DNA from: Cliona cf. orientalis
Lineage: Eukaryota > Porifera > Demospongiae > Clionaida > Clionaidae
Assembly: GCA_963930775.1 (NCBI GenBank)
Contig: OZ005694.1
Coordinates: 2,356,001 to 2,420,000, forward strand
DNA length: 64,000 nt
Reading direction: 5' to 3'
Every line of letters begins with the position of its first letter. Position 1 is the stretch's first letter. Positions 12,213 to 40,027 of the stretch are shown one piece after another. The notes under the pieces are model-generated. The model saw nothing but the letters and a program-made list of their open reading frames with translations, was not told the origin of the DNA and made no database searches. The translations under genes were made by a program, and so were the position numbers.

Positions 12213-13267
12213 CCTACGCCTATGCATGCACAACCTTTACTATAGAGAAACAATGGTCTTCTATTTTGTGAACATAGCCCTCCAGGTGTGACAACAACAC
12301 GGAAGAAGAGCTGCATGGCCAATCATAGAGGACACTGAGACTATGTGCCACAAACACACCACTCTAATCGTCCTGTATTTGAGATTCAGCTGTGTTCTGA
12401 AGATTACTATGCCCTCTGCCCTCTGTAGGTACATCTGGGAAGAAGAGCTGCATGGTCAATAATAGATGAGACTGCCGCAAACAAACCTCTCTAACTGTGC
12501 TCTAATTGAGAGCCAGCCAGCTTTGATCATGGATTATTATGAGTTTGCTGGGGATTTCAGTCTAGCCACACATCATGTGCAATGTGCCTGTGTGTGTACA
12601 ACATGTCTGTGGCATGAACTGTATGAACATCACACTCTTTAGTCACTGGTACACTAATTACATGTAAATTGTCTGCGAAATGCTTCACATCAAGTATGAA
12701 CAAATACAGCTGGGTCTCAACTACAGCACAATTAGAGTGGTTGTTTGCGGCATACAGTCTCATACATTATATTTGCAATTAGTTAATACAAATAGTGATC
12801 CGGGCTGAAACTATATTATATCAAATTTACACGTAAACCAGCTACCCATTTCACCCCCCTCCCTCCACAAATCAGCCCTTGCAAGTATATGGACCGTGCT
12901 AAAGGCAGGATATCCCAGCTATGACAATCAGGGTACAATGTACGAGTGCATTTTTAACACACTATAGAAGAATGCACAATAATGCTTTTGCTAAGTCTAC
13001 CTAGCCTGCATGTGAAAGCATTCATAATAATTATCACTAATAGCTATCATTGTTACCCACTCTTTCAGTGCCAGCCACATGTACTGTTTCCTGCTGGTAG
13101 ACTGGTCCCTTCAATCTGCAAGTCACAATCTGAAAGATTGGAGTCATAATAATATCATAACTCATGATTTTATACTACTACTGTAAAATTAACTTTTTCT
13201 GCCAATTATCAAGTCTTTTCCCGCCAGTACAGAAAAGTGCAAACCTGAGTGAACAATTGCAAAAATT
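12213..13267 (+). repeat. repeat A, uninterrupted copy (empty site of the giant element)
   Basis: Closely matches 21389-21801 joined to 39381-40027, meaning the two flanks of the 17.6-kb element read through without it. The junction ACTGTATGAACATCACACTC holds a single GTATGA at 12621-12626, whereas the occupied copy has GTATGA on both sides. No coding function is seen. The repeat contains motifs such as AAGAAGAGCTGCATGG and GTGCAATGTGCCTGTGTG, and diverged relatives occur at about 14707-15330. Confidence 0.9.
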
Positions 13268-19842: not shown

Positions 19843-21388
19843 CATCCCCAGTATAAATTTACTTTTTTGCGGTTATTAGGTAATTATGTTGTAATTATGA
19901 TGTAACCTATGATGCATAGCGCTAAAATTCAGAGCCTTTACAGAACACTTCTGAGACCTGAAAATCCACAGAATCATATATTAACTTACATATATACATA
20001 TCCAGCGAATACATTAAAAGCTGAGTGCTACTTTCTCCGACAAGTAATGCCAGCCGAACTTCACGCGTTCTCTTGGCTGACGTAATCCTGTGGATAAATA
20101 AAGCTAGCCTTGCGCTATTTATAGCACGCGTCATACCACGACCGATCTGAAGTTCGGAAGCTGTACTGTGCTGTCGAGTTTATCTCCTTTGATTGAAGCA
20201 TCGAAACTCGAAGTCGAAAGTTGATCTTAGACTCCATCTCTGCGATTGAGGCCCCGGCATCGATGTGTGTATTGACGACCTTTACCACATTCACCATTAG
20301 AACTATGCAGCCACTGGGGATGTGGTCAAGGGTTCATAAACAACAATAATTATTATGTGCTTAATAAATAACCAGATAAATTCAATCTAGCTACCAGAAT
20401 TTCTCTTACATGTACTTACAAATGGAAATTCCATGCACACCAAGGAGATGAAGCCATCAAATTTATCTAGCCACCCATTCCAGTTCACCCCCTCCCTTCC
20501 CAAATCAGCCCTTGCATATAGCTACTGTTAATTTACCGCGGTACATCAACAGGTGCTGATCCGGAAAATTTGCATGGAAGGTGGTTGTCGGTGTGGCTAC
20601 CCATAGTAGCTAAACCATACTGATGCAAAGGGGGTGGCTTGTTAATAATGCTGGACATCTCCTATAATACGTTGCATAAAAGAACTGGTGAAGGGGGGTG
20701 GCTAGCGGCTAAGCCACGCTATCCACCCCCTGGATCAGCCGCTGATCAAAGTTCAGAGGATTCATCGTCCACAATTGTGACTGTGCATGCACAATAAAAC
20801 AAACCATACTAGCTATTGTGCTCAAGGGTGTAGATGATGAAGCCCCCCTAGATTTTTCACCATAAACTATGTAGCTACAATGAAGGGCTTATCAAGCCGT
20901 ACTGGATGTGGCTCGATAAGCCCTTGGTATAATACTTTCATTTTTGCCAAAAGGGACGAGCCACTCTCTCATTAATTTATTAAATAATTATTTTATAACA
21001 CCACTGCCACGGTGGCAATCCAATAATAAGTAGGAGTGGTTACAAAATTGGGCGTGGCAACATAACCCTCCCCCCAACTACGAAAAAGTTCTCTACACCC
21101 ATGGTGCTGGATAAATACTTGTCCATGGTGATCACAACCATTTTTTGCATGGATCAATAGAGGAATCATTCCTCTATACAAATATGCGTTTCATAGCTTC
21201 TAGAATGCCAACTTATATTTATGGAGTTAAGGCTCAAAGAAGTCAGATAGCTACATGTATGTACATGCAACTACAATGACTGTTCATGCATGATACGGAG
21301 CTATTGCCATATTTGCAGTTGTAGTTTGGTAAGCGTGGCAGCTGAACACACTAAGGAGTCCCCAGACACTTCTTTCCTCGATTCTGTA
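19843..21388. other. intergenic region
   Basis: No supported gene. It contains a small hairpin at 20881-20932 (AAGGGCTTATC facing GATAAGCCCTT), a dispersed repeat at 20545-20750 listed separately, and the partial start of an eighth array unit just after 19842. The minus-strand ORFs at 19922-20297 show no motif. Confidence 0.45.
20545..20750 (+). repeat. dispersed repeat R2, copy 1
   Basis: Runs from GTGCTGATCCGGAAAATTT to the inverse end CCTGGATCAGCCGCTGATC. Copy 2 lies at about 44885-45072 with the same order, sharing ATAAAAGAACTGGTGAAGGG and a GGGGTGGCTAGC tract. Inverted GCTGATCC/GGATCAGC ends suggest a MITE-like element. Confidence 0.6.
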
Positions 21389-21801
21389 CATTACCATGCA
21401 CAACCTTTACTAGAGAAACAATGGTCTTCTATTTTGTGAACATAGCCCTCCAGGTGTGACAACAACACAGAAGAAGAGCTGCATGGCCAATCATAGAGGA
21501 CACTGAGACTATGTGCCACAAACACACCACTCTAATCGTCCTGTATTTGAGATTCAGCTGTGTTCTGAAGATTACTATATTATATGCCCTTTGCCCTCTG
21601 TAGGTACATCTGGGAAGAAGAGCTGCATGGTCAATAATAGATGAGACTGCCGCAAACAAACCTCTCTAACTGTGCTCTAATTGAGAGCCAGCCAGCTTTG
21701 ATCATGGATTATTATGAGTTTGCTGGGGATTTCAGTCTAGCCACATATCATGTGCAATGTGCCTGTGTGTGTACAACATGTCTGTGGCATGAACTGTATG
21801 A
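21389..21801 (+). repeat. repeat A, left half of the occupied copy
   Basis: Matches 12213-12626 almost base for base (shared CACAACCTTTACTA, CATAGCCCTCCAGGTGTGAC, TGCCTGTGTGTGTACAACAT) and stops exactly at GTATGA (21796-21801), where the 17.6-kb element begins. Confidence 0.9.
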
Positions 21802-22620
21802 TACGGTGGCCGAGAGAGACACACACGCACTATGATTCGACCTTAAGTGATTCGACCGTAATTCATGCCACTGTAAGCGATTCAACCTTAAGCGATTCGT
21901 TGGTAAGCGATTCAACCTTAAGCGATTCGCTGGTAAGCGATTCGTTGGTAAGCGATTCAACCTTAAGCGATTCGCTGGTAAGCGATTCGTTGGTAAGCGA
22001 TTCAACCTTAAGCGATTCGCTGGTAAGCGATTCGTTGGTAAGCGATTCAACCTTAAGCGATTCGCTGGTAAGCGATTCGTTGGTAAGCGATTCAACCTTA
22101 AGCGATTCGCTGGTAAGCGATTCAGCCTTAAGCGATTCAACCTTAATTCATGCCACTGTAAGCGATTCAACCTTAAGCGATTCGTTGGTAAGCGATTCAA
22201 CCTTAAGCGATTCGCTGGTAAGCGATTCGTTGGTAAGCGATTCGATCTTAAGCGATTCGACCCTATTATAGCTATGTCTAATCTAGTTAGTCAGCGATTC
22301 GACGCTAAGCGATTCAGCTTTAAGCGATTCAACCTTAAGCGATTCGTTGGTAAGCGATTCGACCGTAAGCGATTCAACCTTAAGCGATTCGACGCTAAGC
22401 GATTCAGCCTTAAGCGATTCAACCTTAAGCGATTCGTTGGTAAGCGATTCGACCGTAAGCGATTCGTTGGTAAGCGATTCGACCCTATTATATATCTAAT
22501 CGATTTGTTATAGTTAGTCAGTGATTCGACCCTAAGCGATTCGTTGGTAAACTATTCATCTTTAAGCGATATTCGCTTTCTTGGTGGCACGATTCAACCT
22601 TAAGGTATATATTGTAAGCG
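21802..22620 (+). repeat. left terminal inverted repeat with 15-bp minisatellite
   Basis: After TACGGTGGCCGAGAGAGACA and a CA-rich stretch, some 45-50 units of a 15-bp repeat follow. Each is AAGCGATTC plus one of six tails (AACCTT, GTTGGT, GCTGGT, GACCGT, AGCCTT, GACGCT). The variant AATTCATGCCACTGT is interspersed twice. Because 15 is divisible by three, the array is open in several frames and gives long artefactual ORFs. The order of variants from the tip inward matches the inverse of 38757-39380. Confidence 0.92.
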
Positions 22621-22699
22621 AGTTAGCTAATCACGTGACATTAATTAATATTGTTGCCTACCTCGTGCATATCCTAGTACCTCACGTCATTGAGCTACC

Positions 22700-25600
22700 A
22701 TGAATGTTGACGGTAAGTGATCTATATACAGCTATATTATCGTCTTTGAATAATACCCGTACTGATCTGCATGCACGGAAGAAGCCTACGCGTGGGCTCG
22801 GGGGCGCGGCATAGGAGCGACATACTCGGTCTATATCGGCGGGAACTAGCTAATTCAAGTTGATAGCGTCAGACTGGCTTGTATCTAATCGTCTACATTG
22901 GCATTTTATGAGATTTGTGTGTGCGTTCTGATCATTATCTCTATAGTTTTTGACTGCTATAGTATATATTAAAATACACTGCTGCATGCAAACCGTCACA
23001 TACAGTGGGCGTGGTTTGGCAAAAGCTGGGGTGACCTTGCAGCTGAATATAGGAAACTAGGCTAAGATATAGGTGTGCACGGTCTATAAAAGCTTAGCTT
23101 TTCCACTCGCATGAAGCCATACCAAATTAATTATTTATTTCTCGGATTCTGCGCGTCTATAATGGCTGATTAAAAAAAAAAATTTAATTAACAATTCACT
23201 ACTAAAATGATAGCTAGCTGGCTGTCTGTGGCAGTCTGGTGCATGCATGATGCTCACAATTTGCCAGGCCACATCTCCTATTAATTATTAAATGCTGACC
23301 ACCCTGGTCTGTTTCCAGCTCCTTTTTATCCGAGAAACAAAGCATCAAATTGGTATGACCTGATGTATATATATAGCCACTATAGGGCACAGCAGGAAAG
23401 TGCCATAATATGCATTTGCGCTAATTTAAATACATGCCTATATATACATACTATATTGGGCTATTCCATTTAATATCCATACACCCCCTATGGATGACTA
23501 GTGAGGAAAATTTAACCCCTGGACATAATTAACTAGCAACCATCCCCCCTAGACAGTCGTTAATTAGGTCACTGTTCCCCCAAGACATAATTAAGAACAT
23601 TACTACTCCCCCCGGATTATTAATCAAATCAAGTTTTGTTCCCCCTGGACACAAATTAATGCGTTAATTTATGGAAGGGAAATCACCTAAAGGAGCATAT
23701 AGTGCCCCCCTGGACACCACAATTAGTGATGGTTTCACCCCTAGACATAATTAAATTTGACCAAAATACCCCCCTTCCCTTCATTAAAATCAGTGTTTTA
23801 CCCCCCTGGACAAGCCTCAAAATACCCCCCTGGACATTCGTTAGCAGTCATCCATAGGGGGTGTATGCTCATTAAATGGAAGAGCCCATTAGCACCTTGA
23901 ATTTCCTGTTGTGCCCTATAGTAGCTATAATTATTATAATAAGGCCACACCAAGACATTAGTTTCCCGTCCATCGCCCACCCCTTGCTGAGTGAGCCGCC
24001 TGTTTATTGCATTATTGCATTATAATTGCCAAAAATAATGCTACTGACTAACGTCATGATCAGTGTACAATAATACACTGTTATAGTATCATAATTAATA
24101 TTATAGTATCATTGTTATAATATAATAATAATGATACTGATCGTTGCATATTGGACAGTCCTGAAGTCCGACGATGATCGACAAAATTCGGCAAGCTTCT
24201 TCAATTCGGCATGGTCAATAAGGTCAATGAGATTCATGGAATATTAATGAGATTCATGTAATGATTATTAGTTGTGCAATATTATTATTGTATGGTCTGG
24301 TGAGATGCACGTGATCTCGTATCTTCATGCTAATAAGATTATTATTACCGATCATTACATGGTGTCAGAGGTAAAAAATGGAGCATTTCAAACCCCCTGA
24401 GCCACTCAGTCTCGAAGGGAACCTGTCGGAAAACTGGAGGAGATGGAAACAACGCTTTGAACTCTATCGCGACGCGAGCGGTATCAGCGGTAAGGAAGAA
24501 AAAACGCAAGCCGCCACTTTGCTACACGTGGTCGGGGCGGAAGCACTGGAAGTGTACAATAATTTCACATGGGACAACGACGGTGATAATATGAAGGTGG
24601 AACAAATCATGGCTAAGTTTGAAGCATACTGCAACCCAAGGAAGAATGTCACCTGGGAAAGGCACGTGTTTAACAACAGAAACCAATTGCCGGGTGAGCC
24701 CATCGACCACTTCGTGACCGACCTACGCACAAAAGCCAAAACATGCGAATTCGGCACTCTAACCGACAGCCTCATCAGAGATCGCATCGTTGAAGGCGTG
24801 CTTGATGACGGTATACGTAGCAGACTACTCAGAGAGACATCCCTCACCCTCCAGAAGGCTCTCGATATATGCCGATCAAGCGAAGCAGCCTCCACACAAA
24901 TGAAGTCACTAACAAATGACAACCCAGGAGCGAGTATCGCAACCATCAACCAAAGAAAGCCAACCTCAAATTCCAGGCACGCAAGCTGTGGCCGATGTGG
25001 AGGACGGCATCCCAAACAATCGTGCCCTGCCATCGGTGCTCAGTGCCACAAATGTGGACTCAAAAATCACTTCAGCAGAATGTGTCGTACCAAGGCAAAT
25101 AGCAAGCGAACAGCACCACAGCAAGCGATTCATCACATTGATGAAGGAAGTTCAGACGAAGACACCGCAAACCTGTATGTCTGCACCATAAGCAATAGCA
25201 AAGCCAAACAAGATGAAGAATGGAGAGCCACTCTAATTCTCAACGACAGAAGGGTGGTATTCAAATTAGATACAGGCGCGGAATGCAATGTTATCTCAAA
25301 GGAGGTATACGATTCTGTCAGCAAGCAACCACTTCAAAAAACAAGGACGAAGCTTGTCGCATTCGGAGGCCACAAGCTAAACCCATGCGGAAAGGCCCAC
25401 GTACTATGTGAATACAAGGGCAGGTACAGGGTCCTCGAATTCATGATCGTAGATGGAAATGTCCAAAACGTACTCGGGAAAAGGTCATGCTCAGAACTCA
25501 AGCTGGTCAAGCGAGTGGACGCTATCGAAAGGTGCATCACAGACGACTATGCCGATGTTTTCCAAGGACTGGGGTGTATCAAGGATGTTATACACCACAT

Positions 25601-28600
25601 CAAGTTGGACGAAAATGCCAGACCAGTAGTCCACCCACCACGTAGGGTCCCTATAACACTGAGGTCACGAGTAAAGGATGAACTAGACCGTATGGAGGCA
25701 CTCGGTGTGGCTGAGAGAGTGCACGAGCCCTCGGACTGGGTCAATAGTATGGTGACAGTCATCAAACCAAATGGCAAGCTAAGAATCTGCATAGACCCAA
25801 GAGATCTCAATAAGGCAATCAAACGAGAACATTTCCCCACAAAAACCGTCGAAGAAGTGGTAGCGAGAATGCCCAATGCAAAAATCTTCTCTGTTTTGGA
25901 TGCCAGTTCAGGATTCTGGCAAATTGAACTCGATCAAGAAAGCTCAAAGCTCTGCACGTTCAACACACCATTTGGCCGCTACAGATTCAAAAGGCTTCCA
26001 TTCGGAATTTGCTCCGCACAAGATGTTTTTCAAGATGTGATGTCGGAAATATTCAGTGGTATCGAAGGAATCGAGGTCATAGTTGATGACTTGCTTATTT
26101 GGGGTGAAAACCAACAGCAACACGACGAACGCTTAAGACAGGTCCTAGAAAGAGCAAGGCAAAAGAACTTGAAACTCAACAAGGAAAAGAGCCAAATTGC
26201 CCTGGATGAAATCAGCTACATCGGACATGTCCTCAGTAAAGAAGGCCTTAAACCAGATCCTCAGAAAGTACGAGCCATCACTGAAATGAACCGACCACAG
26301 AATAAAGAGGAGTTGCAACGATTCTTAGGAATGGTCACATACGTGGCTAAATTTATTCCCAACTTTTCACAAATTTCCACACCCCTGAGACAGCTACTAG
26401 AGAAGGAAACTGACTGGCACTGGACAGAAATTCAGGAGGAAAGTTTCAACTCGCTGAAGACTTTAGTAACACAATCGCCTGTCCTGAGATACTTCGATGT
26501 TGGTAAACCTGTCAAGATCTCAGTCGATGCCAGTTCAGGAGGGTTAGGAGCAGTCCTCCTTCAAAATGACCAACCTGTAGCCTATGCATCGAAAGCCCTA
26601 TCACGCAGCCAAATCAACTACGCACAGATCGAGAAAGAGATGCTAGCCGTAGTGTTTGGATGCACACGATTCCACGACTACATATATGGGCTGAAAGAGA
26701 TACAAGTCGAAACCGACCACAAGCCACTTGAGTCGATTCTAAAAAAACCACTACACCAAGCACCTATGCGGCTTCAAAGAATGATCCTACAAATACAGAA
26801 GTACCCTCTGATAGTAACGTACAGACCAGGAAAAGAGTTACTTATTGCAGATACATTGTCAAGAGCATACTTACCTGACGAGGGTGGAAACATCCTGGAT
26901 GAGGAACTAGAGGTCAACCTGATAAACACACTCCCCATATCAGAAAACAAGCTGGAGCTGATTAAGTACGAAACCCTACAGGACCCTCCACTGCAACAGT
27001 TGAAGCAAACAGTGATAACTGGATGGCCGGAAAGAAAGTACGACTGCCCACATACCATCACCCCGTACTGGAATTGCCGTGACGAAATATCCGTGCATGA
27101 CGGCATCCTGTTTAAAGGTGAACGAGTCATAATCCCGAAGAAACTCCAACCCAAAATGCTACAGATTATACATGGTGCACACTTAGGCGTAGAAAAATGC
27201 AAAAGGCGAGCCAGAGACGTCCTATATTGGCCAGGTATGAATGCACAGGTGGAGGATATGGTTTTAAATTGCCAAGTGTGTGCACAGTACAGGAAAAGCA
27301 ACAGAAAAGAACCACTCTTACCACATGACGTACCTCAGCGACCATGGGCCAAGGTTGGCGGCGACCTTTTTGAAGTCGGAGGACAAACATTCATGATACT
27401 AGTTGACTACTATTCAGGATTTTTTGAAATCGATAACCTGAAGCAAACCAAAAGTGAAAACGTAATCAGGTGTTGCAAAGCACAATTCGCCCGATATGGA
27501 ATCCCCGACACACTCATCACAGACAACGGTCCACAATTTTCAAGTACGGAATTTAGACAGTTTTCAAACGAATACCAGTTCAAACATAAAACATCAAGTC
27601 CTCATTACCCACAGTCTAACGGAATGGCTGAAAGGGCTGTCCAAACTGCTAAGAGATTGCTAATAAAAGCCAAGGAGGATAAGAAGGACCCATACCTCTC
27701 ACTCCTAGATCTCCGCAACACCCCGAAAAGCAACCTTCTTGGATCGCCAGCACAAAGGCTAATGGGACGACGAACTAAAACGCTGCTCCCAACTTCTAGC
27801 AAACTACTCGAACCCAAAGTCATAAAAACTACAATTGTCAGATCCGAACTACAGGAAGAGAGACGACGACAAAAGCAGTCCTATGATAGACACGCCAAGG
27901 AGTTGACAACTCTCCAACCGGGACAAAATGTTCGAGTTCAATTTGGTAAACAATGGAGACCAGCAGTGGTCACCTCTGTGTCTTCAGAACCAAGATCGTA
28001 CAATATCAAAACACCAGATGGACAAACATACCGCAGAAATAGACGACACCTAATGGAGTCAAAATCAACAGGTTATGAGCAATCAAGTTTTGATGACAAT
28101 TGGCCTGGATATGAGCCCCCAGAAAGTGACCCTCCTCCAACGGAGCCAGTTCACGAAGCTCCCGAACCAACTGGTGACAATAGTCCAGGCTCGAATTCGG
28201 TAAACGAAACCAGCCCCCCACTGAGACGCAGCCAGAGGAATACTCATAGGCCAGCCAGGTATGCAGACACTTGGGGTTATAATAACTAAAAGAAAAAGAA
28301 CAGTCTTATTAATTAATTTTTGTTATTGTTGATACTATTGTATTGTTAATGATATTAAAGTTTTCTCATGCATAAAATATCTTCTTTGTGTCTCCTTGTC
28401 TTTGTCATTAGTGATCTTTATCATCTGTGAGCCTCCCACTCGTCCTACGAAAGGGAGGATGTAATGATTATTAGTTGTGCAATATTATTATTGTATGGTC
28501 TGGTGAGATGCACGTGATCTCGTATCTTCATGCTAATAAGATTATTATTACCGATCATTACAATTCATAAGAATACATGATACATATAATACACCACCCG

Positions 28601-31260
28601 CCCGCATCCTTTTGCAATTATGATTGTATATGGGTGGACGGGAAACTAAAGTCTCATATGGTGTGGCCTAATAAAGGTTAAAAAAGTTCATGCACATCAC
28701 TTGAAGACAATCGGCGAAGATAATATTATTTTGTCAATTGTATTAATATAATTTTTATTGCTTATAACTATATATACCAACTGATACAGGCATTCTGATG
28801 GAATACCATCGCTCATGTAGGTCCTACAAACTAATTTTGGAACGGCTACATGAAGTCCATGGGATCAGAAGGAGGTATACTATATACACATGCAGTTATA
28901 ATAATTATCTATTATCATAGCTATATATATAGACTAAGTATAATATTAAAATTTAATAGTCAATTCATTAACTTTTGATTATAATATAGTTGCTTTAGTA
29001 TAATATTAGCAATTATATTATATTGATAATGAATCAGATGTGATTAACTTTTGAATTATTATAGTATATCATGGCTAAAGAAGCAATTTCAAAGGTTGAA
29101 CCTATACCGTAGAAAAGTGCAGTATACACCGGTTTCAGTGGTAAAGAACTGTATTCGTGTAAGTCATATAATAATAATAATTAAATTATTGTGAAATACA
29201 CTACGTCCAAAAGTGAAAAAAATGAATAATTGGCTAACATTTTAGGCATGCAATTAGTATTTCCATGCAATTTTTTAACATTTGGCTTGCTGCGCACAGC
29301 CTATATTAATTGTATCATTTTCAGCTTTTGGGTATAAAGTATATGATTATATGCAATAAAATCTATTAATAATGATACCGGCAATAATAATTATGATGAT
29401 TATATACATGTTATTAATACTATAACAGTGTGAATTAAGGACTTCAAAATCCTCAGTTGGCTACAGGGCAATGTGGCATGTTCTACAGAACAAGTATAAG
29501 CTAACAGTAAAACGGTAAATTAATTCATAATAGTTAATTAGCTATGGTCTATAATATTATCTCCAGCTAACTTTATTATGTCCATGCAATATGAATATTA
29601 GAGATGTAGTTATGAGGTTATTACGACAACTGGACCAAGAAAATGTCATTCATCGACAGAAAAGGCGGCTTAGAAGAAGAGCTTATATTAGTCGAGTATG
29701 AGTATAATAATTATTATAATTAATATACCCATGGCATTGCCAGGACATAATTTCCATACATTAATTTTGTATACAAAGAAGCTTCTACATTGATTCCTCG
29801 AAATGAGGTACATGCATGGGGAGTACGTGGGCGCTTGCCCGGGACACTATTATAATAATTACTACTATATATGGCATCCCATGCATGCGGGCCAAAATTG
29901 CAATGTATGTGACAGTCGTGTTTAAGCGCCCATGGGTGCTTATTCAGGACACTTCTGAATCAGTATTAAATTATAGTCATGCATACATGATGTTAATTAT
30001 TATGACATTTATTGTACATAAGATTATAATAATATTATACCCATATTGTAATTGTACAGGGGCCAGACTTTGTCTGGCACCTCGACGGTTATGACAAGTT
30101 GGCTCCATATGGACTTTACATTCATGGGTGCATTGATGGGTAAGTTGAACTGTTATTATGTAACTATTATTATTATTGTTATAGTTGCTCTATACCATCC
30201 AGTTTCTCCAGAAAGATAATATGGTTATATGTAGCTTCAACAAATAGACAGCCTGGAGTTATACTGCAGTATTATTTAGAAGCTGTAAACAAGGCCAATG
30301 GTATTATAATGTCATGTTATTTTTAATTTCTGCCATAATTATTATTATGCATGCTGATAGGATGTCCGTCAGTACTCCAATTTGATTGTGGTAATGAACA
30401 TGTGTCCATAGCATCAACACAATATGCGATGAGGGAGAACGATGACGATAGTTTTGCAGGAGATAAAAGTTTTCGGTTTGGCAAATCCACATCAAACACA
30501 GTAAGGAATCTAGCTTATATAATATTATATTTCATGCGTATAGCTACTATTATTATACTAATAATTGCATCAGAGAATTGAGGGTATGTGGTCACAATTG
30601 CGAAAGCATACTACTGGCTGGTGGATAACTGCTTTCAAGGTTTGTATTATTAATTATTACATCAATATTTATAAAATTGTATATACCCTACATGTATAAT
30701 AATAATTATTATCAATTTTTAAAGGAGATGGAAGCCCAAGGAATTCTCAACACCCATAATACAATACATAGGTTGTTGGCTATCATTAAACTTTATAAAA
30801 TCTATACTTATTATTATTGCTGTATTATCCAATTCAGGAAATGTCTGGCTGTTGTTTTTAAGTCACTCTTGCAAAATGACTTAAATGAATTCGTTCTTTA
30901 CTGGAACACTCACAGGATCAGAAGCTCTAAACATTACAATTGTATTAGTGGAATCCCCAATGATTTGCACGATATGCCTGCTTACTATGGTCAGTAAGAT
31001 AATCAAGTTTATAAACTTGAATATTATTATTATAACTGTTTTTAGGTACAAGCAGTTACCTACAATCGATCGATTTTAATGTTTGGTATACTGCTCTGAT
31101 GACCAAAGCATGTTCCCCACCTCCAATGTACGACAGCAGGTTCTATCAAGAATGCTATGAGCTAGTGCACAACACACTTGGTGTAGATCTTCACAAAGAT
31201 ATTACTCATAGCAATTCACTTGAAGTGTACAAATTTCTCATTACATCACTGTACATATGA
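22700..31260 (+). CDS. DDE (rve/integrase-core) transposase, 12 exons, 389 aa
   Basis: Exons: 22700-22712, 28790-28874, 29065-29158, 29429-29514, 29602-29695, 30060-30139, 30203-30300, 30361-30500, 30574-30639, 30725-30771, 30838-30989, 31046-31260; 1170 nt, frame closes. The 13-nt first exon (MNVD plus one base) is inferred from phase and a GTAAGT donor; everything from 28790 on is strong. The N-terminal part (MEYHRSCRSYKLILERL, then SISWLKKQFQRLNLYRR) looks like a helix-turn-helix. The catalytic core has WHLDGYDKLAPYG (first Asp) followed by HGCIDGFSRKIIW, QFDCGNE (second Asp) and RIEGMW (Glu), with about 40 residues between the last two. The rest (WWITAFKEME, WNTHRIRSS) is conserved in animal integrase-like transposases. 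This should cut and join the ends of the element. Intron 1 (~6 kb) is swollen by nested transposons. Confidence 0.82.
23373..23928. repeat. outer MITE with CACTATAGGGCACA ends, hosting an inner MITE
   Basis: Left TAGCCACTATAGGGCACAGC and right TGTGCCCTATAGTAGCTATA are inverted copies (about 25 bp). Between them sits a second element, 23458-23887, with its own inverted ends, so this is a nest of two. Confidence 0.65.
23458..23887. mobile_element. MITE with GGGCTATTCCATTTAAT ends and internal C-rich repeats
   Basis: Ends GGGCTATTCCATTTAATA and, inverse, GGGCTCTTCCATTTAATG continue inward as CATACACCCCCTATGGATGA on both sides, giving TIRs of about 43 bp. ATT flanks both sides (23455-23457, 23888-23890), a 3-bp duplication. 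The body is a degenerate ~30-bp repeat of the form CCCCCTGGACATAATTAA, about ten copies. A one-ended relative lies at 49255-49330. Confidence 0.75.
24257..24359 (+). repeat. 5' LTR (103 bp)
   Basis: Starts TGTAATGATTATTAG and ends CCGATCATTACA. Identical by eye to 28460-28562. It is unusually short for a Ty3-type element. Confidence 0.93.
24378..28289 (+). CDS. Gag-Pol polyprotein of the LTR element, 1303 aa
   Basis: Single frame. Order: Gag-like region (about 1-200); two zinc-knuckle-like Cys clusters (CGRCGGRHPKQSC, CHKCGLKNHFSRMC, about 205-240); aspartic protease (DTGAECNV, about 300); reverse transcriptase with the VDD active-site core (about 430-620); RNase H; zinc-binding integrase N-terminus and DDE core; short basic, proline-rich tail. 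Protease-RT-RNase H-integrase order places it in the Ty3/gypsy group. No envelope gene is seen. It belongs to the LTR element and not to the host transposon around it. Confidence 0.93.
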   Translation: MEHFKPPEPLSLEGNLSENWRRWKQRFELYRDASGISGKEEKTQAATLLHVVGAEALEVYNNFTWDNDGDNMKVEQIMAKFEAYCNPRKNVTWERHVFNNRNQLPGEPIDHFVTDLRTKAKTCEFGTLTDSLIRDRIVEGVLDDGIRSRLLRETSLTLQKALDICRSSEAASTQMKSLTNDNPGASIATINQRKPTSNSRHASCGRCGGRHPKQSCPAIGAQCHKCGLKNHFSRMCRTKANSKRTAPQQAIHHIDEGSSDEDTANLYVCTISNSKAKQDEEWRATLILNDRRVVFKLDTGAECNVISKEVYDSVSKQPLQKTRTKLVAFGGHKLNPCGKAHVLCEYKGRYRVLEFMIVDGNVQNVLGKRSCSELKLVKRVDAIERCITDDYADVFQGLGCIKDVIHHIKLDENARPVVHPPRRVPITLRSRVKDELDRMEALGVAERVHEPSDWVNSMVTVIKPNGKLRICIDPRDLNKAIKREHFPTKTVEEVVARMPNAKIFSVLDASSGFWQIELDQESSKLCTFNTPFGRYRFKRLPFGICSAQDVFQDVMSEIFSGIEGIEVIVDDLLIWGENQQQHDERLRQVLERARQKNLKLNKEKSQIALDEISYIGHVLSKEGLKPDPQKVRAITEMNRPQNKEELQRFLGMVTYVAKFIPNFSQISTPLRQLLEKETDWHWTEIQEESFNSLKTLVTQSPVLRYFDVGKPVKISVDASSGGLGAVLLQNDQPVAYASKALSRSQINYAQIEKEMLAVVFGCTRFHDYIYGLKEIQVETDHKPLESILKKPLHQAPMRLQRMILQIQKYPLIVTYRPGKELLIADTLSRAYLPDEGGNILDEELEVNLINTLPISENKLELIKYETLQDPPLQQLKQTVITGWPERKYDCPHTITPYWNCRDEISVHDGILFKGERVIIPKKLQPKMLQIIHGAHLGVEKCKRRARDVLYWPGMNAQVEDMVLNCQVCAQYRKSNRKEPLLPHDVPQRPWAKVGGDLFEVGGQTFMILVDYYSGFFEIDNLKQTKSENVIRCCKAQFARYGIPDTLITDNGPQFSSTEFRQFSNEYQFKHKTSSPHYPQSNGMAERAVQTAKRLLIKAKEDKKDPYLSLLDLRNTPKSNLLGSPAQRLMGRRTKTLLPTSSKLLEPKVIKTTIVRSELQEERRRQKQSYDRHAKELTTLQPGQNVRVQFGKQWRPAVVTSVSSEPRSYNIKTPDGQTYRRNRRHLMESKSTGYEQSSFDDNWPGYEPPESDPPPTEPVHEAPEPTGDNSPGSNSVNETSPPLRRSQRNTHRPARYADTWGYNN
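28460..28562 (+). repeat. 3' LTR (103 bp)
   Basis: Identical by eye to the 5' LTR; preceded by the purine tract ending GAAAGGGAGGA and followed by the target duplication ATTCA. Confidence 0.93.
29805..29957. repeat. fragment of an AGTGTCC-ended MITE family, in a transposase intron
   Basis: Contains GGGCGCTTGCCCGGGACACT and AAGCGCCCATGGGTGCTTAT, rearranged pieces of the element complete at 32505-32658. It lies in the intron between the exons ending 29695 and beginning 30060. Confidence 0.5.
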
Positions 31261-31475
31261 CACTATACATTAATAATTACGAGTTCAGTCTTCTGTTTCT
31301 CCATAATAACATTGTATGAATGCAAACAGCTGAGCATTAAATAATGATCATGAGCAGTAATAAAATTTTACTGCTGCAGGTTATAACAACAATAATTGTG
31401 GTTGAACTGGTTAAGAATAAGATGAGAAGTGAGTAAGCTACAATGTTGACTTCAATATTATTAGTTGCAGTAACT

Positions 31476-34400
31476 TCACTCCGAATTTTCTTCAGTTGCA
31501 AGTATCAATTCAAATTCCCTGAAAATCTGCATTATGCATAATAATAAATTAATTAATTCATAATGAAATTGGATGTCTATATCTACTTACATCTTCACTG
31601 CATGGCCTCAATGCTGGGACTCTCTTTAAGCTCTTGTTGATGATTCCCAAATAGAGTTGGCACTTCTTATTTTCCAGTTCCCCAGCCTTGGAATCAGCAA
31701 GAGCACGAAACGTGTCCAAGTTACTGCGATCATCTTCAGTATGGTCAGTCTAAGTTTTCATAAAACGTATAACTATGACACTGATAAAGACAACCAGATG
31801 TATGACATGTAGTCAAGCTCAGCTCCAGAACATGCTATATATGGGTCGTAGGCAAGAATGGACAAATAGTACAAAACTCCTGTATAATAGTATTGCACTT
31901 ATGTCGTGGTGTCATAGGATAATATTTATTTAGATATTATTATTAAAATTACCAAGTTGTTTGCAGTCCTCCGGTCCGAGTAAGCCAGCATCCCAGTAAA
32001 ACACTCCAGAATCACCTATAGTATAGACACAACATACAATAAGTACCACACGTGTATATACACCGTACGGTACCCACCTACACCCCCCCCCCCACACACA
32101 CGCACACACAAACAAACACACGCTTACCACTCCAAGAGAATATATGTCACTTCTCACACTGTAGTTTCCATCACTGAATTCGGGAGGGCGGTACCCATTC
32201 GTTCCCGGAAGTCCATCACGAGCGTTGATCAGAGTTACATTACCCACAGTTTCTGGCATTTGTATGGAGAAACCAAAGTCTGCCAGTTTAGCTGTCAGGT
32301 GTTCATCCAACAATATGTTGGACCTGTATAATAGAAGTACTGTATACTTAATCTAATATGGAATGCATGGTCCAATTTAGTATAAGAAAATAGTACTTCA
32401 CAAATTTTCATGTTATTTATATAATATTATTATGGAGTGATTGATGACCTTTACCATAAAACAAGCTGTTTAAAATATTTTCCATACTCTCTACTAAATT
32501 ACCATAGTGTCCTGGGTAAGCGCCCATGTGATTTTAGCCCACATGGGTGCTTACCCGGAATCAAAATTCCATACATTTGTATGGAACCTGCTATGGTGAC
32601 ACCTTGAAATGGGGTACATGGGTGTTTACACGGGAGTGGGTACTTGCCCAGGACACTATAGTAAGTACTACAATTCAATACTTACGAGTTTATATCATGA
32701 TGAACAACTGCAGGTGTTTCACTATGTAAATATACAAGCCCACACGTTGCGTCCCGTAATACTTTGGCCCTCTCAAACCATGTGAGTGGACTGTAAATCT
32801 GTAATCACAAGACACCATCTTTGTATGCATACAATTAATGTGTCACTCTAACCTCCAACTCATGGATGTTCTTAAAGAGTGAATACCTCTTCATGAGAGG
32901 GTACACAAGACAAGGAGGCTTCTCACAATATCCCATCAACGGTACTAAATTTGGATGGCGGTACCTATAGTATAATATTGTGCAGGTGTTACATGCATTA
33001 TGTGGGAAAAGCATACTACATGCCGAAATTCACAATACACACCTTGTTAGAGCATTTATTTCAGTCCGCAACTGTGTAGTAACTTTCCCTCTCAGCATGC
33101 TTACACCACGCTATGGAGAATTCACATTGTATTAGTAATACCAATAGCAAATTTGAGCATAACTTACTTCAGTCAATTTTTTAATTGCCACACTACAACA
33201 TCTGATTTCTCCTTCAAACACCATGCCAAATCCCCCCCTTCCAATAACAGTTTTCTCTGCAAAATTGTCCGTAGCTTTTTGTAATTCACCAAATGTGTAT
33301 ACCATTGTTGATCCTGTAATAAACACAATAAATATGCAAATACATGTAGTCATGAATGAATTCAATATTCACTATAATAGCTCTTTGACATCGTACATGT
33401 ATAATAATATGTAGCTATACATATTTTACCCATTAGTTGGAAAGGGTCATCATATGTATCCACAACATTAACACTAGTATCAACATGATTATTTTTGTAT
33501 ATTAGTGTGTGGAATTTTAATTATGTGGTTTATACCATCAACATATTTTTTGTGATGAACTAGTGGCTCGTCTGCACTTAGATTATCTTGAGTCTGAGAC
33601 TGGGAAGTGAACTGAGATCCTGACTGGGAAGCAAACTGAGATCCTGACCGGGAAGCAAACTGAGATCCTGACCGGGAAGCAAACTGAGATCCTGACATTA
33701 CAGAACTTGTAGTACCTGATACGATCAACAAGGCATGTGATCATTCCACCACCACTACTGCATGTACTTACATGTAACTGTCATGACACACTCACCTGTT
33801 TTTTGTCGTTCAACAATTATGGTTTTAGATGAGCATCGGCACCATCCAGCATGGATGGAACATCTGTATGTTCCAGGGGAACTAATCCAGAGTACAGGTG
33901 AATTCCCAGGAATTTCTTTGTCCACTGAATTCCATTTATACTCAAAATCAAGGGTATGCCCACTAGCAATGCAAAAAAGGGGGATCGACTCTGTTCCTGT
34001 GAGTACTATTTTACTTGGGGACTGATGGATTATACTCAAGGCACCTGTTGAGAACATGTGTATACAGTAAAAAAATGATATTCAAAATTAAGAGCTAATG
34101 AAACATACCATCTGCAGTATCATCCTTCACAGAAAATTTCCCATCCGAATCACAAGTTAGCAATTCTACGTCATCTGATTATAATAAATAACAATATTGA
34201 AACCTTGCACATCACGTTATATACACAACTAAGAGCCACAAATATTTAGGCATAATAATGATTAATGCAGGACAAAAATGTAGTGTTAGTGTGATAAAAA
34301 TTTCTACGTATACGGTATTAAACTGTGGCTATATATTATTATGTATGTCGCATCGCATAACCTTTCTGTATCATTACAACATGATAGGAATCATCTTCCG

Positions 34401-36830
34401 GGATATAATCCAGTGGAACATCATTTGTGGCAGAAACGTCACTCTTTAAACCATAAACTTCAGCTCGTGTGTACATGACGCTATCCAGTCCGAGTGCACC
34501 AATACCACCAGCATACTTCACTGCAGTAAAATGTATCATACTGGTGGCAGCAATCGTCAACTTCTAACATACCAACTAAATCATTCGGATTTGACTGTGC
34601 AGGGGGTGGGGGATTCTTCTCTCGTCTCTCTTTCAATTTTGATCCCTGGATTGATATACAATGTGGCTAGTTGGTACCTCCATCACAGGAACAATCTGTC
34701 AGTAAAGGACAACTATCCTGCCCCAGAGTGTCTGCTGTTCACAGATTCTATTATATACAAAACTTACAATGAGGCTGTCCACAAATCCAATGCCGAGCTT
34801 CATCTGAGCAGCATGTCTTTTTTGCACCCTTAGATACTCACTAATTGTCCATGGACGATCACCAATGGGTTTGTTGGGTACTTCTGTGCCATCAATCCTA
34901 AATAGCCTCAGTTCATACAAGTAGGAATCATCCCCTTCAAGATCAATATCCAAGGCATCTGCAGATATCTCGCACAGCTCCTCGTACGATGCAGAACTCG
35001 GGCAAGAAACTTCAACATACTTATCAGACTTCACATGTGAATTTCTTTTCCTGGATCGCTTCATTTGACACACACGTAACTATATTAAAAGGATGATATC
35101 AGCGATGATCGCTAAGAATCACGGACACTACCGAAATTCAAGCTGGTTGTTGCATGACACACTGCATGCGGAATGCATGCTATATATAGGCAAGGTTAGC
35201 TATAATTATCCATGGGATTGTGTAAGGCAAGAGAATGCGTAAAATTTGAACAGTGGTACTAAAAGCAATATGCTGCTAGTAAAGCATTTGCACATACTGA
35301 TTTTTAAGTCCCAGAAAGGCTCCATCGAGGCCCTGAACTTTCTCATGATTTTACCATAGGTTTCATCATAATATTAATCTCATAATCACAGAAAAGTAAA
35401 TTGCTACTGGGGATGTAATATTTTATTCATACCATTTCAGTGCTGGAAATTCTAGCTTTCCCCAGCTGTTTTCGGGCATGTCGTTGGGCATCTCTACCTC
35501 GAACAAGAGCATCAAGAGATTCTTGTGGAACCAAACCTCCTATCAGGAGCACATACATGTAAAGGAAAAAGGGGAGTAATGAACAGCTACATACACATAG
35601 TGCATAGAACTGTTTACGACATTCTAACGCATGATGGTCAGACAATCAGGTGAATATGACATACTGCTAAGTATAGTATCATTAATCATGGTGTTATTGC
35701 TGCTAAGGATATAGATGCACAATGTGAAAAACGAATACACCCAAGTACGCATGTTAATGTGGTACGGGGTCACTTAACCAGAAAAATAATTGTCGCATAC
35801 AAGTGGTTCAGATTACAGGATTTGGTTGCACCCAATCAGATTTGAGAATTAAATTTATTGTGTAGAGTAATGATTTACTAGTGGTACCGTATGGCGGGTA
35901 ATTTTCGTGGGGACTAATTTTTGTGGAAAGTCCGAAAAGGCCCTCAAAATTAATTTTCGTGGTTTTAAATTTCGTGATAGCAACCAGTCCAGGGGCGTGG
36001 CACTGCTGCACTAAACGATGATGTAATCGATACAAGCACTCGTGATCTTCTTTGTTACGAAGCCATGCCTACAGAGACTTGGATAAATAGCATGAGACAG
36101 TGTCAAAGATGCTATCAGCTGGATGACAGTGGTTACTGTTGCTTGCTATACTGGAAAGTATTGGTCGCGCTGCCACGATGTTTGTGGCCACGCCCATCAT
36201 CATGGACTTGCATTGTACCATATCACTGTAGGCATTAATTTTCGTGGGTGGAAAAATTTCGTGACTGCCAAGTCAACCACGAAAATAACGAAAATTAGCA
36301 CCCCACGAAAAGTATCCGGCCATACGGTATGTATGCACAGTTGTTTGCAATTACATGTGACGTTTTCTTTTTACAATTATTGCATTCTGCTGGAACAACC
36401 AGCTGTATAAATGGTCACCAGACCCCTCTTTCCCTCTGATTAGAGTGTGGCATGTGAGATTGCTACAGGCACCAACAGCAATCAAGACCAAAAAAATGGG
36501 CCCGATCAATTTTGATCCTGGTCATAGATATCAGTACAGCGCATAGTAACCACGCATCTCGCAAGGCCTTGCTACATATATCAACAATCCGAAAGATTGC
36601 GCATGCATACTAGGAAGCTAGTCATGTTTTTAATAGATTGTAGTGTGTTTACTAATACACTCACCGCTAGCGCCGAGAGGTCTAGCTGTGGTTCTGGAGC
36701 CGCCCGTTGTACCAGTCGTTGGACTCTCAGAAACATTTCTCAACGCTTCTTGAACCACATTTGATACTCCTTTTACTATTTCCTCTCGTGCTGCTTCCAT
36801 TTTCCTGGATCTCAGCCATCGCCCTGCCAT
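31476..36830 (-). CDS. Pelle/IRAK-like protein kinase with Ig-like domain, 15 exons, 728 aa
   Basis: Exons, 5' to 3' on the minus strand: 36830-36665, 35539-35433, 35079-34768, 34560-34362, 34174-34109, 34044-33796, 33715-33536, 33313-33168, 33110-33043, 32964-32853, 32798-32686, 32323-32128, 32015-31953, 31749-31591, 31526-31476; 2187 nt, all phases fit. Order: unassigned N-terminus, a ubiquitin-fold-like region (about 100-195), an Ig-like domain (about 285-365; LFCIASG ... GTYRCSIHA), a Ser/Gln-rich linker with four SGSQF repeats, then a kinase domain (about 430-710). All catalytic motifs are kept: GRGGFG, VAIKK, TEINAL, HHDINSSN, ADFGFS, RPPE. FGELQKATDNFAEKTVIG is typical of the Pelle/IRAK/RLK group. 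No signal peptide or membrane span is seen, so the Ig fold is probably cytoplasmic. It is convergent with the transposase. Confidence 0.85.
32505..32658. repeat. MITE with TAGTGTCC / GGACACTA ends, in a kinase intron
   Basis: TAGTGTCCTGGGTAAGCGCC at the left, GTACTTGCCCAGGACACTA at the right, with internal inverted CCATGTG/CACATGG. It lies just past the exon ending 32686 (minus strand), in the intron before exon 32323-32128. Confidence 0.65.
35885..36330. mobile_element. MITE with TACCGTATGG ends, in kinase intron 1
   Basis: TACCGTATGGCGGGTAATTT at the left; inverse of the right end TACCGTATGGCCGGATACTT. Both sides continue inward with TTTTCGTGGGG and with several further TTTTCGTGG/CCACGAAA motifs. 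Similar CGTGG/CCACG motifs around 49420-49570 may be an older relative. Confidence 0.7.
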
Positions 36831-37370
36831 GTCTGCCTGCTAGCCCGCTCCTTTCTAACTGGAGCCCACCAATGTCACACGTGTCTCGTTCCCGGACCAC
36901 ACAGTAACACCACAGAGTCTCGTTCCCAGATCACAGATCTCGCGCATGCATACATGTCCGGTCAGTGACTGAGTGGGCCAGCCACCTCAACAGCAGTCCT
37001 AACTGAACACCAAGGCTTAAATAAGCTTCAAGTCAAGAACTTGTGGGTTTTGTAAAGCTCCTGAACTTCTCTATTGACCCCAAATTATAAGCATCGTTAA
37101 AAACAATCATTCAATAGAATTGATTAATCCACCCACAAAATAGGAGCTTACATGTATCTTAAAACTGCAGCCATATAGAATTATGATACTGACAGTATGC
37201 AAATGTAGATGCATAGCTAATACTATTAGCAGCAATGCGGTATTATTATTAAATAATGCTACCATATTATTGCACCATCAACCCAGTCTGGCCCCTGACA
37301 GTTATCGTTGCACATAACTGTGCTTGTACAGTCCTTGATATTGTATAATTATGCAGTGAATTAGATTGTA

Positions 37371-38630
37371 TTATAAAATCATGTATGATGTATACCTACT
37401 TTCTTCTAGGTTGTTTAGCATTGTGATTTTTTCAGCCTGCATAATAGTATTATAAGAGTACAGTAGGCGTAATATTTAATGTGATTTAGTACATGATGAT
37501 GCTTACATCATTGTAGTTGAGATCATATACATCCATCACAAGCCTGATAATGACCTCTGGCCATAGTACAGATGCTCCATAGCCATAATTCTATAATAAT
37601 TAGTAGTAATCATAGTAAATCACCTTTAGTATAGTCAATTTTTGTACTAAAAATTCATCAAGTTACACTCATAGATTTCCCAGGGCATAATCTTTCAGTA
37701 ATCCACGTTAGTATCTCTGGAAACTGATCCTTCGTGACAACCAAATTAAAATTTTGATACCGTAGACCTTCTATAAAAATTAATTACGTGTAATAATAAT
37801 ATTATTACTCAATGATTCCACTCGATATATATATATATATAATAATTAGATGAAAGTACCATACAATATTACATGAATAGCAATCACCTCTTATTTTTGG
37901 CGGTCCATTCATAAAAGCATCATGGCGCCAAGATGGGATCTACAGACAGTACATAACATTAATTTTCTTTGTACCTGCTTGTACAGTTATAGTATCAATC
38001 AAGATTTGCTTCATTACTGCTTGCGATCACATGCAAATGTAGCCATAGTGATCAATCAGAACCAACTTTGCACGGCCTTGTCGGCATGCGCCATAGAGCA
38101 AGAACCGAAGTTCATCAGAACCCTTTTCCCTCATCGAGGATGGGATCTAATTCAGAAATATGCCCCAGAAAGCACTCAATGTCTACCCGGCAGACCCTTT
38201 CAGGTGGGGTCTGGGAACAAAACTAAGACTATAACATTGAGGTGATCTGGAGCATGGTTATATTGGAGATTCACCTATTGTGCAGCCAATTTGGAGGAGG
38301 GGGGGGGGATAATTTATTAATTGATACTAAAAAATTCTCAACCTACCTTGCCATCTGCTATGTCCTGAAAGTGTTGCCAGTTGTCGCAGAACCACAGGTA
38401 TAGCTCATTGATGCTAATATCCTTGATTTGCCTATCAGTATAGTTTATTAAAAGTTAGAAAATTAGATAGCTACCGTCTCGGTTTGCGGTATGTACGGAC
38501 ACCGGACGTGACAGTTTATTGAAATTTTGATACCAACTAACGTTTTTCCCAAGAGAGGATTAGGACTGTCTTCTTCATCACTAGATCTAATAACTATCAC
38601 TTCGTCACTGCAGCTGCCTGTGATAGCCAT
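37371..38630 (-). CDS. 174-aa protein beside the right TIR, unrecognised
   Basis: Exons, 5' to 3': 38630-38497, 38431-38347, 37939-37888, 37770-37667, 37590-37507, 37436-37371; 525 nt, frame closes. A start 54 nt further upstream (38684) is also open. The N-terminus is acidic and serine-rich (SSDEEDSPNP, a SUMO-interaction-like VIVIRSSDEED). The middle has ELYLWFCDNWQHFQDIA and the C-terminal half SVLWPEVIIRLVMDVYDLNY. No catalytic motif is seen. Its position next to the TIR, transcribed inward opposite to the transposase, suggests a second element-encoded function such as a DNA-binding or targeting partner; that is inference. Some splice sites (first donor GTACAT) are weak. Confidence 0.55.
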
Positions 38631-38756
38631 TTTATGGCCAGGTACTAGGTGAGTCCGTGGCAGGGGCGCTGTGGGTGGGGTCAACTAACTGTACGCGCGA
38701 TTTATAGAATGCGGGAAATTCCCTAATTCAGGTAGCGCGCTAATTGCATATATTCG

Positions 38757-39380
38757 GACCGCCGTGTCGAATCGAACCGCCTACCAACGAATCGCTTAAG
38801 GTTGAATCGCTTAGCATCGAATCGCTTACCAACGAATCGCTTACGGTCGAATCGCTTACGAACGAATCGCTTAAGGCTGAATCGATTAGCGTCGAATCGC
38901 TTAAGGTTGAATCGCTTAAGGCTGAATCGCTTACCAGCGAATCGCTTAAGGTTGAATCGCTTACCAACGAATCGCTTACCAGCGAATCGCTTAAGGTTGA
39001 ATCGCTTACCAGCGAATCGCTTAAGGTTGAATCGCTTACCAACGAATCGCTTACCAGCGAATCGCTTAAGGTTGAATCGCTTACCAACGAATCGCTTAAG
39101 GTTGAATCGCTTACAGTGGCATGAATTAAGGTTGAATCGCTTAAGGCTGAATCGCTTACCAGCGAATCGCTTAAGGTTGAATCGCTTACCAACGAATCGC
39201 TTACCAGCGAATCGCTTAAGGTTGAATCGCTTACCAACGAATCGCTTACCAGCGAATCGCTTAAGGTTGAATCGCTTACCAACGAATCGCTTAAGGTTGA
39301 ATCGCTTACAGTGGCATGAATTACGGTCGAATCACTTAAGGTCGAATCATAGTGCGTGTGTGTCTCTCTCGGCCACCGTA
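38757..39380 (-). repeat. right terminal inverted repeat with 15-bp minisatellite
   Basis: Inverse of 21802-22620: GAATCGCTT units with tails AAGGTT, ACCAAC, ACCAGC and others, including the same two interspersed ACAGTGGCATGAATT variants, ending GGCCACCGTA at 39380. It has about 40 units, somewhat fewer than the left end. Confidence 0.92.
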
Positions 39381-39386
39381 GTATGA

Positions 39387-40027
39387 ACATCGCACTCTTT
39401 AGTCACTGGAGTGGTACACTAATTACATGTAAATAGTCTGCGAAATTCTTCACATCAAGTATGAACAAATACAGCTGGGTCTCAACTACAGCACAATTAG
39501 AGTGGTAGTTTGCGGCATACATTATATTTGCAATTAGCTAATACAAATAGTGATCCGGGCTGAAACCATCAAATTTACACGTAAACCAGCTACCCATTTC
39601 ACCCCCCTCCCTCCACAAATCAGCCCTTGCAAGTATATGGACCGTGCTAAAGGCAGGATATCCCAGCTATGACAATCAGGGTACAATGTACGAGTGCATT
39701 TTTAACACACTATAGAAGAATGCACAATAATGCTTTTGCTAACTCTACCTAGCCTGCATGTGAAAGCATTCATAATAATTATCACTAATAGCTATCATTG
39801 TTACCCACTCTTTCAGTGCCAGCCACATGTAGTGTTTCCTGCTAATAGACTGGTCCCCTTCAATCTGCAAGTCACAATCTGAAAGATTGGAGTCATAATA
39901 ATATCATAACTCATGATTTTATACTATTATACTACTGTAAAATTAACTTTTTCTGCCAATAATTATTATCAAGTCTTTTCCCGCCAGTACAGAAAAGTGC
40001 AAACCTGAGTGAACAATTGCAAAAATA
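39387..40027 (+). repeat. repeat A, right half of the occupied copy
   Basis: Continues exactly where 21801 stops when compared with 12627-13267 (shared ACATTATATTTGCAATTAG and CAGGATATCCCAGCTATGAC). At 40028 it gives way to DNA matching about 6515 upstream of the ependymin-like copy 1. Confidence 0.9.

Follow-up and report, generated by a model that had tools for sequence, protein, structure and literature searches.

What is the 17.6-kb block, bounded by inverted repeats, that splits a repeat in the genome of the sponge Cliona cf. orientalis, does it move as one unit, and which of its genes serve that movement? The block lies within a 64,000-nucleotide stretch (assembly GCA_963930775.1, contig OZ005694.1, positions 2,356,001 to 2,420,000 of the forward strand; hereafter the window), in which an initial annotation had recognised a transposon together with its empty site. 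We compared the block with the whole 217-Mb assembly of 149 contigs; positions in the window are given as plain numbers and those elsewhere as contig:position. The comparison makes it very probable that the block is a cut-and-paste transposon of the IS3EU/GingerRoot type, equipped with a spliced gene that is probably its transposase and with a spliced gene for an IRAK/Pelle-like kinase as a presumed helper.

Element boundaries, empty site and second copy

21802-39380: whole IS3EU-type element, 17,579 bp, delimited by its ends and duplications
21796-21801: left 6-bp target-site duplication (TSD), GTATGA
39381-39386: right 6-bp TSD, GTATGA
21802-22484, + strand: left terminal inverted repeat (TIR; first 232 bp exact) with subterminal 15/45-bp repeats
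38772-39380, - strand: right TIR with subterminal repeats
12213-13267, + strand: paralogous, uninterrupted copy of repeat A with a single GTATGA, the empty site

The TIRs of the element match exactly over 232 bp and have the termini TACGG..CCGTA, and inside both ends lie subterminal repeats whose units are 15 bp or multiples of this length. When the uninterrupted repeat A (12213-13267) was aligned to the two halves of the split copy, it proved collinear with 21395-21801 (97%) and 39381-40026 (93%), and where these two halves meet it has a single GTATGA. The ends, the GTATGA duplication and the length of 17,579 bp that had been claimed were thus all borne out, and the empty site supports the view that a single TIR-bounded unit was inserted into repeat A.

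A second copy with the same ends and cargo exists elsewhere in the genome, at C1:29857677-29870170. It is 12,494 bp long, carries both the transposase and the kinase gene, and matches 29915-39138 of the window at 94%; in a global alignment the two copies are 96.9% identical over 9,556 aligned bases. Since this copy has its own duplication, GCCCAC, the cargo block was inserted at two sites. The empty site in the window and a second copy with a different duplication together indicate that the block is mobile, and that it moves as a unit, as had been proposed.

The ends belong to a larger family. The 13-mer TACGGTGGCCGAG occurs 345 times in the assembly and its reversed control not once, so these ends are not a product of chance; a 21-mer of the window element's own family has 47 copies. 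Both ends were present at 29 of 38 scanned loci, the partner end not being found at several of the others. A perfect 6-bp duplication flanks 18 of the 29 paired loci, four have one mismatch and seven score worse, among which 7-bp repeats were seen by eye at two (L055+56 and L059); because a script retained, locus by locus, whichever pair of ends matched best, the count is slightly biased towards matches. The termini TACGG..CCGTA, as picked by the script, are found at 26 of the 29. Two-ended copies in the window subfamily measure 0.7-4.2 kb, except the window copy and the 12,494-bp copy on C1.

Another element, of 10.3 kb, was noted at C1:13567187-13577468 (L052+L053), with the ends TACGGTGGCCGAGAAGG and the TSD CTATAC; it contains a pogo-type DDE_1 open reading frame (ORF) and an ORF with weak matches to Ulp1 (C48) and to a PHD finger.

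The probable transposase gene

28780-28866, + strand: possible N-terminal transposase exon fragment, tentative, read by eye
30060-30139, + strand: transposase exon with the first catalytic Asp (WHLDG)
30203-30300, + strand: transposase exon
30361-30500, + strand: transposase exon with the second Asp (QFDCGNE)
30574-30639, + strand: transposase exon with the catalytic Glu (RIEGMWS)
30725-30771, + strand: transposase exon (EMEAQGILNTHNTIH)
30838-30993, + strand: C-terminal transposase exon; another 3' exon may follow

The joined exons match the integrase-type domain rva_4 (PF24764, E 4.1e-36; the match to rve, 2e-4, is below its cut-off), with D, D and E in place, and the predicted introns have canonical splice sites. 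Between the window copy and the second copy, 2 of 600 bases scored as exon differ, compared with 16 of 293 in introns (Fisher p 1e-6); under the final exon bounds one of the two exon differences falls in an intron. The spliced rva_4 gene is, as judged from these features, likely to be the element's own transposase. A search of solved structures with this protein gave no relative (best E 0.92), and around the 10 best rva_4 loci of the genome no TIR with TSD was found in about 3.5 kb at each locus.

One rva_4 relative (L062) matches HTH_21, below its cut-off; HTH_21 is a helix-turn-helix (HTH) domain typical of IS3. This relative (C4:530833-531414 with flanks) is an intact single-ORF protein of 479 aa that stands amid an array of ordinary kinases, beside a 389-aa ORF that may be HECT-like.

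The kinase gene

31558-35064, - strand: 12-exon gene for an IRAK/Pelle-like kinase (627 aa and a stop codon), composed of an N-terminal part, an immunoglobulin (Ig)-like part, repeats and the kinase domain
33796-34044, - strand: Ig-like exon (Pfam match below cut-off)
31558-33313, - strand: kinase-domain exons (GRGGFG, VAIKK, HHDIN, ADFG)

With this gene and the rva_4 gene, the expectation of spliced genes within the element was confirmed. The kinase domain matches PF00069 (E 3e-34), and its best solved relatives are BIK1 (6.7e-41) and IRAK4 (1.5e-38). The Ig-like match (E 0.0027) is below the cut-off, the N-terminal part has no Pfam match, and a repeat linker is present; the fold predicted for the N-terminal exon from the single sequence has a mean pLDDT of 51.6. 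The last exon may end instead at an internal GTAAGT donor.

All 11 introns are GT-AG in both copies, each copy keeps an open frame (of 627 and 618 aa), and the only indels in the exons between the copies are of 24 and 3 nt. The copies differ by 9 synonymous and 13 non-synonymous changes (pN/pS 0.42, p 0.066); when non-synonymous sites were compared with synonymous and intron sites together, a deficit of amino-acid change was found (p 0.002). Introns have thus diverged more between the two copies than have the exons of the transposase or the amino acids of the kinase. As far as sequence comparison can demonstrate it, the block was inserted twice with a 6-bp stagger and with conserved coding of the predicted transposase and kinase.

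In a DNA search with the kinase region, in which 40 of 798 candidates were scored, only the two elements match along it; the remainder match over short stretches, almost always at a single repeat near 32.5-32.7 kb. The N-terminal/Ig part is rare outside the two copies: of its 22 genomic matches, 8 belong to these copies and 14 are spread over 10 other loci.

Transposase-kinase pairs elsewhere in the genome

The kinase gene of the window (- strand) is convergent with the transposase gene (+ strand), and the same arrangement recurs. The chain of transposase exons is also found, with internal stops, in a diverged element at C1:18463744-18473398, where a kinase is convergent with them; this kinase is of another TKL type, with CTR1 as its best solved relative. 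Its four best relatives (pairs at C4:4594558, C15:5004580, C6:6934668 and C1:31184276) are likewise convergent, 406-661 bp from transposase exons. Among the relatives of the window kinase is one at C1:22415537, where both genes were partly read: identity is 63% for the last transposase exon and 37-59% for the kinase exons, and the kinase seems to have a frameshift. At the C1:18463744 locus (L055/L056), three right ends also stand in tandem at a spacing of 75 bp, the duplication is of 7 bp (ATCCGTG), and a DDE_3 transposase is nested inside the element.

The survey was extended to 18 related kinase loci besides the founders, 8 of them relatives of the C1:18463744 kinase and 10 of the window kinase. 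The former 8 are short, exon-like matches at 38-59% identity; C8:8621453, which matches at 38% over a long stretch in one frame, was assigned to the ordinary kinases. At 11 of the 18 loci a listed transposase match is no more than 12 kb away, in 9 cases convergent and in 2 on the same strand; the transposase matches used for pairing (150 of 169 listed) include more distant rva_4 proteins. Two lists of control kinases, which overlap in part, gave 0 of 64 and 3 of 132 within the same distance and none convergent, all three being beside one rva_4 ORF on C4, on the same strand. Among the 10 other loci with the N-terminal/Ig part, 5 have a listed transposase match within 12 kb, and N-terminal, Ig and kinase matches follow one another in that order at C1:20638128-20640871, C1:21850927-21859248 and C1:22415537-22428273.

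Since related transposons in the genome also have such kinases beside them, these data suggest that the kinase serves the transposon. A plausible course of events would begin with a transposase, from the window copy or a related one, acting on the TIRs and subterminal repeats; the rva_4 enzyme would then excise the element and join it to its target at a 6-bp stagger. The kinase would owe its retention to a benefit for the transposon, most likely through phosphorylation of the transposase or of a host factor in repair or silencing.

Several points weigh against this interpretation. The 18 loci were chosen by hand; 7 of them have no listed transposase match nearby, and the two same-strand loci depart from the arrangement. 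TIRs were seen around only three transposase-kinase pairs (the window, C1:29857677 and C1:18463744), and close to the C4, C15 and C6 pairs no end of the GAGAGGGGC type, the only type looked for there, was found. The kinases of the window and of C1:18463744 share only 28% identity, so that the two types may be separate captures. The comparison of synonymous with non-synonymous differences alone is not significant, and the models of both genes are predictions from sequence. Finally, the search for N-terminal (HTH) exons of the transposase in the window element gave nothing beyond the fragment at 28780-28866, and this fragment lies in a stretch that finds no match in the second copy; consequently, we do not claim autonomy for the window copy.

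Some further arrangements were noted. A TIR end at C1:31191623 lies 5.2 kb beyond the kinase at C1:31186378. At C2:1341760-1350188 and C1:31665675-31674739 the N-terminal part of a window-type kinase and transposase exons share a strand, 6-7 kb apart, and are not convergent. The TIR end TACGGTGGCCGAGAGGGGC at C1:29715265 stands 1.9 kb before an Ig match of the window kinase (C1:29717206), with no listed transposase match near.

Alternative explanations

The strongest competitor, which we nevertheless regard as unlikely, is that a host kinase gene was taken up by a TIR element in a single event and afterwards copied by chance as decaying cargo. In its favour, gene capture by DNA transposons is known, and most paired copies of the TIR family are elements of 0.7-4.2 kb. 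Against it, just two elements, among the 40 of 798 candidates that were scored, match along the kinase region. Decay is at odds with a reading frame that is open in both copies, with indels that keep the frame and with fewer amino-acid than neutral changes, and the diverged transposase-kinase pairs at other loci already weaken the idea of a single capture.

It is still less probable that the kinases are host genes that stand near transposons through shared crowding on the repeat-rich arm of C1. Many matches do lie on C1 beyond 16 Mb, and ordinary kinases can adjoin an rva_4 gene, as the three control kinases at the single C4 ORF do. On that arm, however, 5 of 13 loci are convergent, compared with a mean of 0.20 and a maximum of 3 in 10,000 random placements; three of the closest pairs, with their spacing of a few hundred base pairs, are on C4, C15 and C6; and the pairs of the window and of C1:29857677 lie between the same TIRs.

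A self-synthesising element of the Maverick/Polinton kind would share the size of 12-18 kb, the 6-bp duplications and an integrase-type enzyme, yet we consider it very improbable. A six-frame Pfam scan of 28760-38700 gave no polymerase B, packaging ATPase or capsid, although short exons could escape such a scan and 22.6-24.25 kb lay outside it; moreover, Polinton termini are AG, and this element ends in TACGG.

There remains the integrase of a Ty3/Gypsy retrotransposon nested in the element:

24257-28562, + strand: nested Ty3/Gypsy long terminal repeat (LTR) retrotransposon, recognised by its LTRs and duplication and absent from the second copy
24257-24359 and 28460-28562: identical 103-bp LTRs, TG..CA
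24252-24256 and 28563-28567: flanking 5-bp duplication ATTCA
24375-28289, + strand: gag-pol ORF, 1304 aa (protease-like, reverse transcriptase (RT), RNase H, integrase)

The insert has the LTRs, a TSD within the 4-6 bp of Ty3/Gypsy elements and the protease-RT-RNase H-integrase order of that group; the ORF matches RT, RNase H and integrase, and its protease match is below the cut-off. Since its LTRs are identical, the Gypsy is, on this structural evidence, a recent insertion, a later passenger of the TIR element and no part of that element's own machinery. The initial annotation had taken this ORF, with its rve domain inside the element, for the DDE transposase of the element, a reading that we abandon and to which we give almost no credence, because the ORF belongs to a unit with its own LTRs, 5-bp duplication, RT and RNase H, because the second copy inserted with its own TSD and is without it, and because a separate integrase-type gene (rva_4) is present.

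A tandem array stands a little to the left of the TIR element, at 16966-19852; it repeats about 5 times at roughly 448 bp and includes a 261-bp doublet.

Comparison with known IS3EU elements

The transposon with a helper kinase, which we prefer to these alternatives, can be set beside described elements. IS3EU/GingerRoot elements are described as having TA..TA termini, usually 6-bp TSDs and a DDE integrase-type transposase (PMC10045372), and the fungal IS3EU termini as TAYGG..CCRTA (PMC12730594). The window element has TACGG..CCGTA, 6-bp duplications and a predicted rva_4 transposase with D, D, E, probably related to that of IS3, so that its ends, duplication and transposase type appear to fit IS3EU/GingerRoot. 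A further mark of the group is that no HHCC zinc motif precedes the core; in the window element this part would be encoded by the N-terminal exons, which were not identified. It departs from the group in general, as described in PMC10045372, by its long TIRs with subterminal arrays, its second gene and the many short introns of its transposase.

The closest described parallel is the fungal IS3EU that bears a TET/JBP gene between the transposase and an oppositely oriented alpha-kinase gene (PMC12730594). The 6-bp TSD, the TAYGG..CCRTA ends, TIRs of more than 30 bp and a kinase opposite the transposase are common to both. In contrast, the kinase of the window is an ordinary IRAK-like one (PF00069, as above), and that of the sister element is Raf/CTR1-like, not an alpha-kinase; no TET/JBP is found among the Pfam matches of 28760-38700, and the host belongs to Porifera. 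In the fungal pair the genes are described simply as having opposite orientations (PMC12730594); the window pair is convergent. In the sponge genome none of 12 alpha-kinase (PF02816) matches lies within 12 kb of a listed transposase match.

Other relatives carry additional genes as well. Styx of Zymoseptoria is IS3EU-related, with four ORFs, and has a 6-bp duplication in one described case, like the window element; it differs in its consensus of 7,927 bp and its fungal host, and no kinase is mentioned in the sections consulted (PMC10853768). Intons, fungal IS3EU derivatives with five to six conserved proteins, share the trait of extra proteins (PMC3520738). The statement of the initial annotation that no element with such a combination had been described stands in part: the ordinary kinase sets this one apart, but a kinase opposite the transposase has a precedent in the alpha-kinase of TET-bearing fungal IS3EU (PMC12730594). 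Searches of the open-licence literature showed no recognisable kinase-bearing animal transposon.

Possible meaning of the kinase

We propose tentatively, and at somewhat less than an even chance, that transposition of IS3EU elements depends on, or is aided by, a kinase which they encode, that different lineages have put unrelated kinases into the same opposite-strand slot, an alpha-kinase in fungi and IRAK-like and Raf/CTR1-like ones here, that self-encoded phosphorylation regulates transposition, and that here an immune-type kinase became a transposon gene. If this were true, the occurrence of opposite-strand kinases of different families in IS3EU elements of fungi and of this sponge genome would point to a shared requirement. 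An IRAK-type kinase gene that travels, introns included, within a transposon may also offer a route by which gene families of this kind spread or are borrowed.

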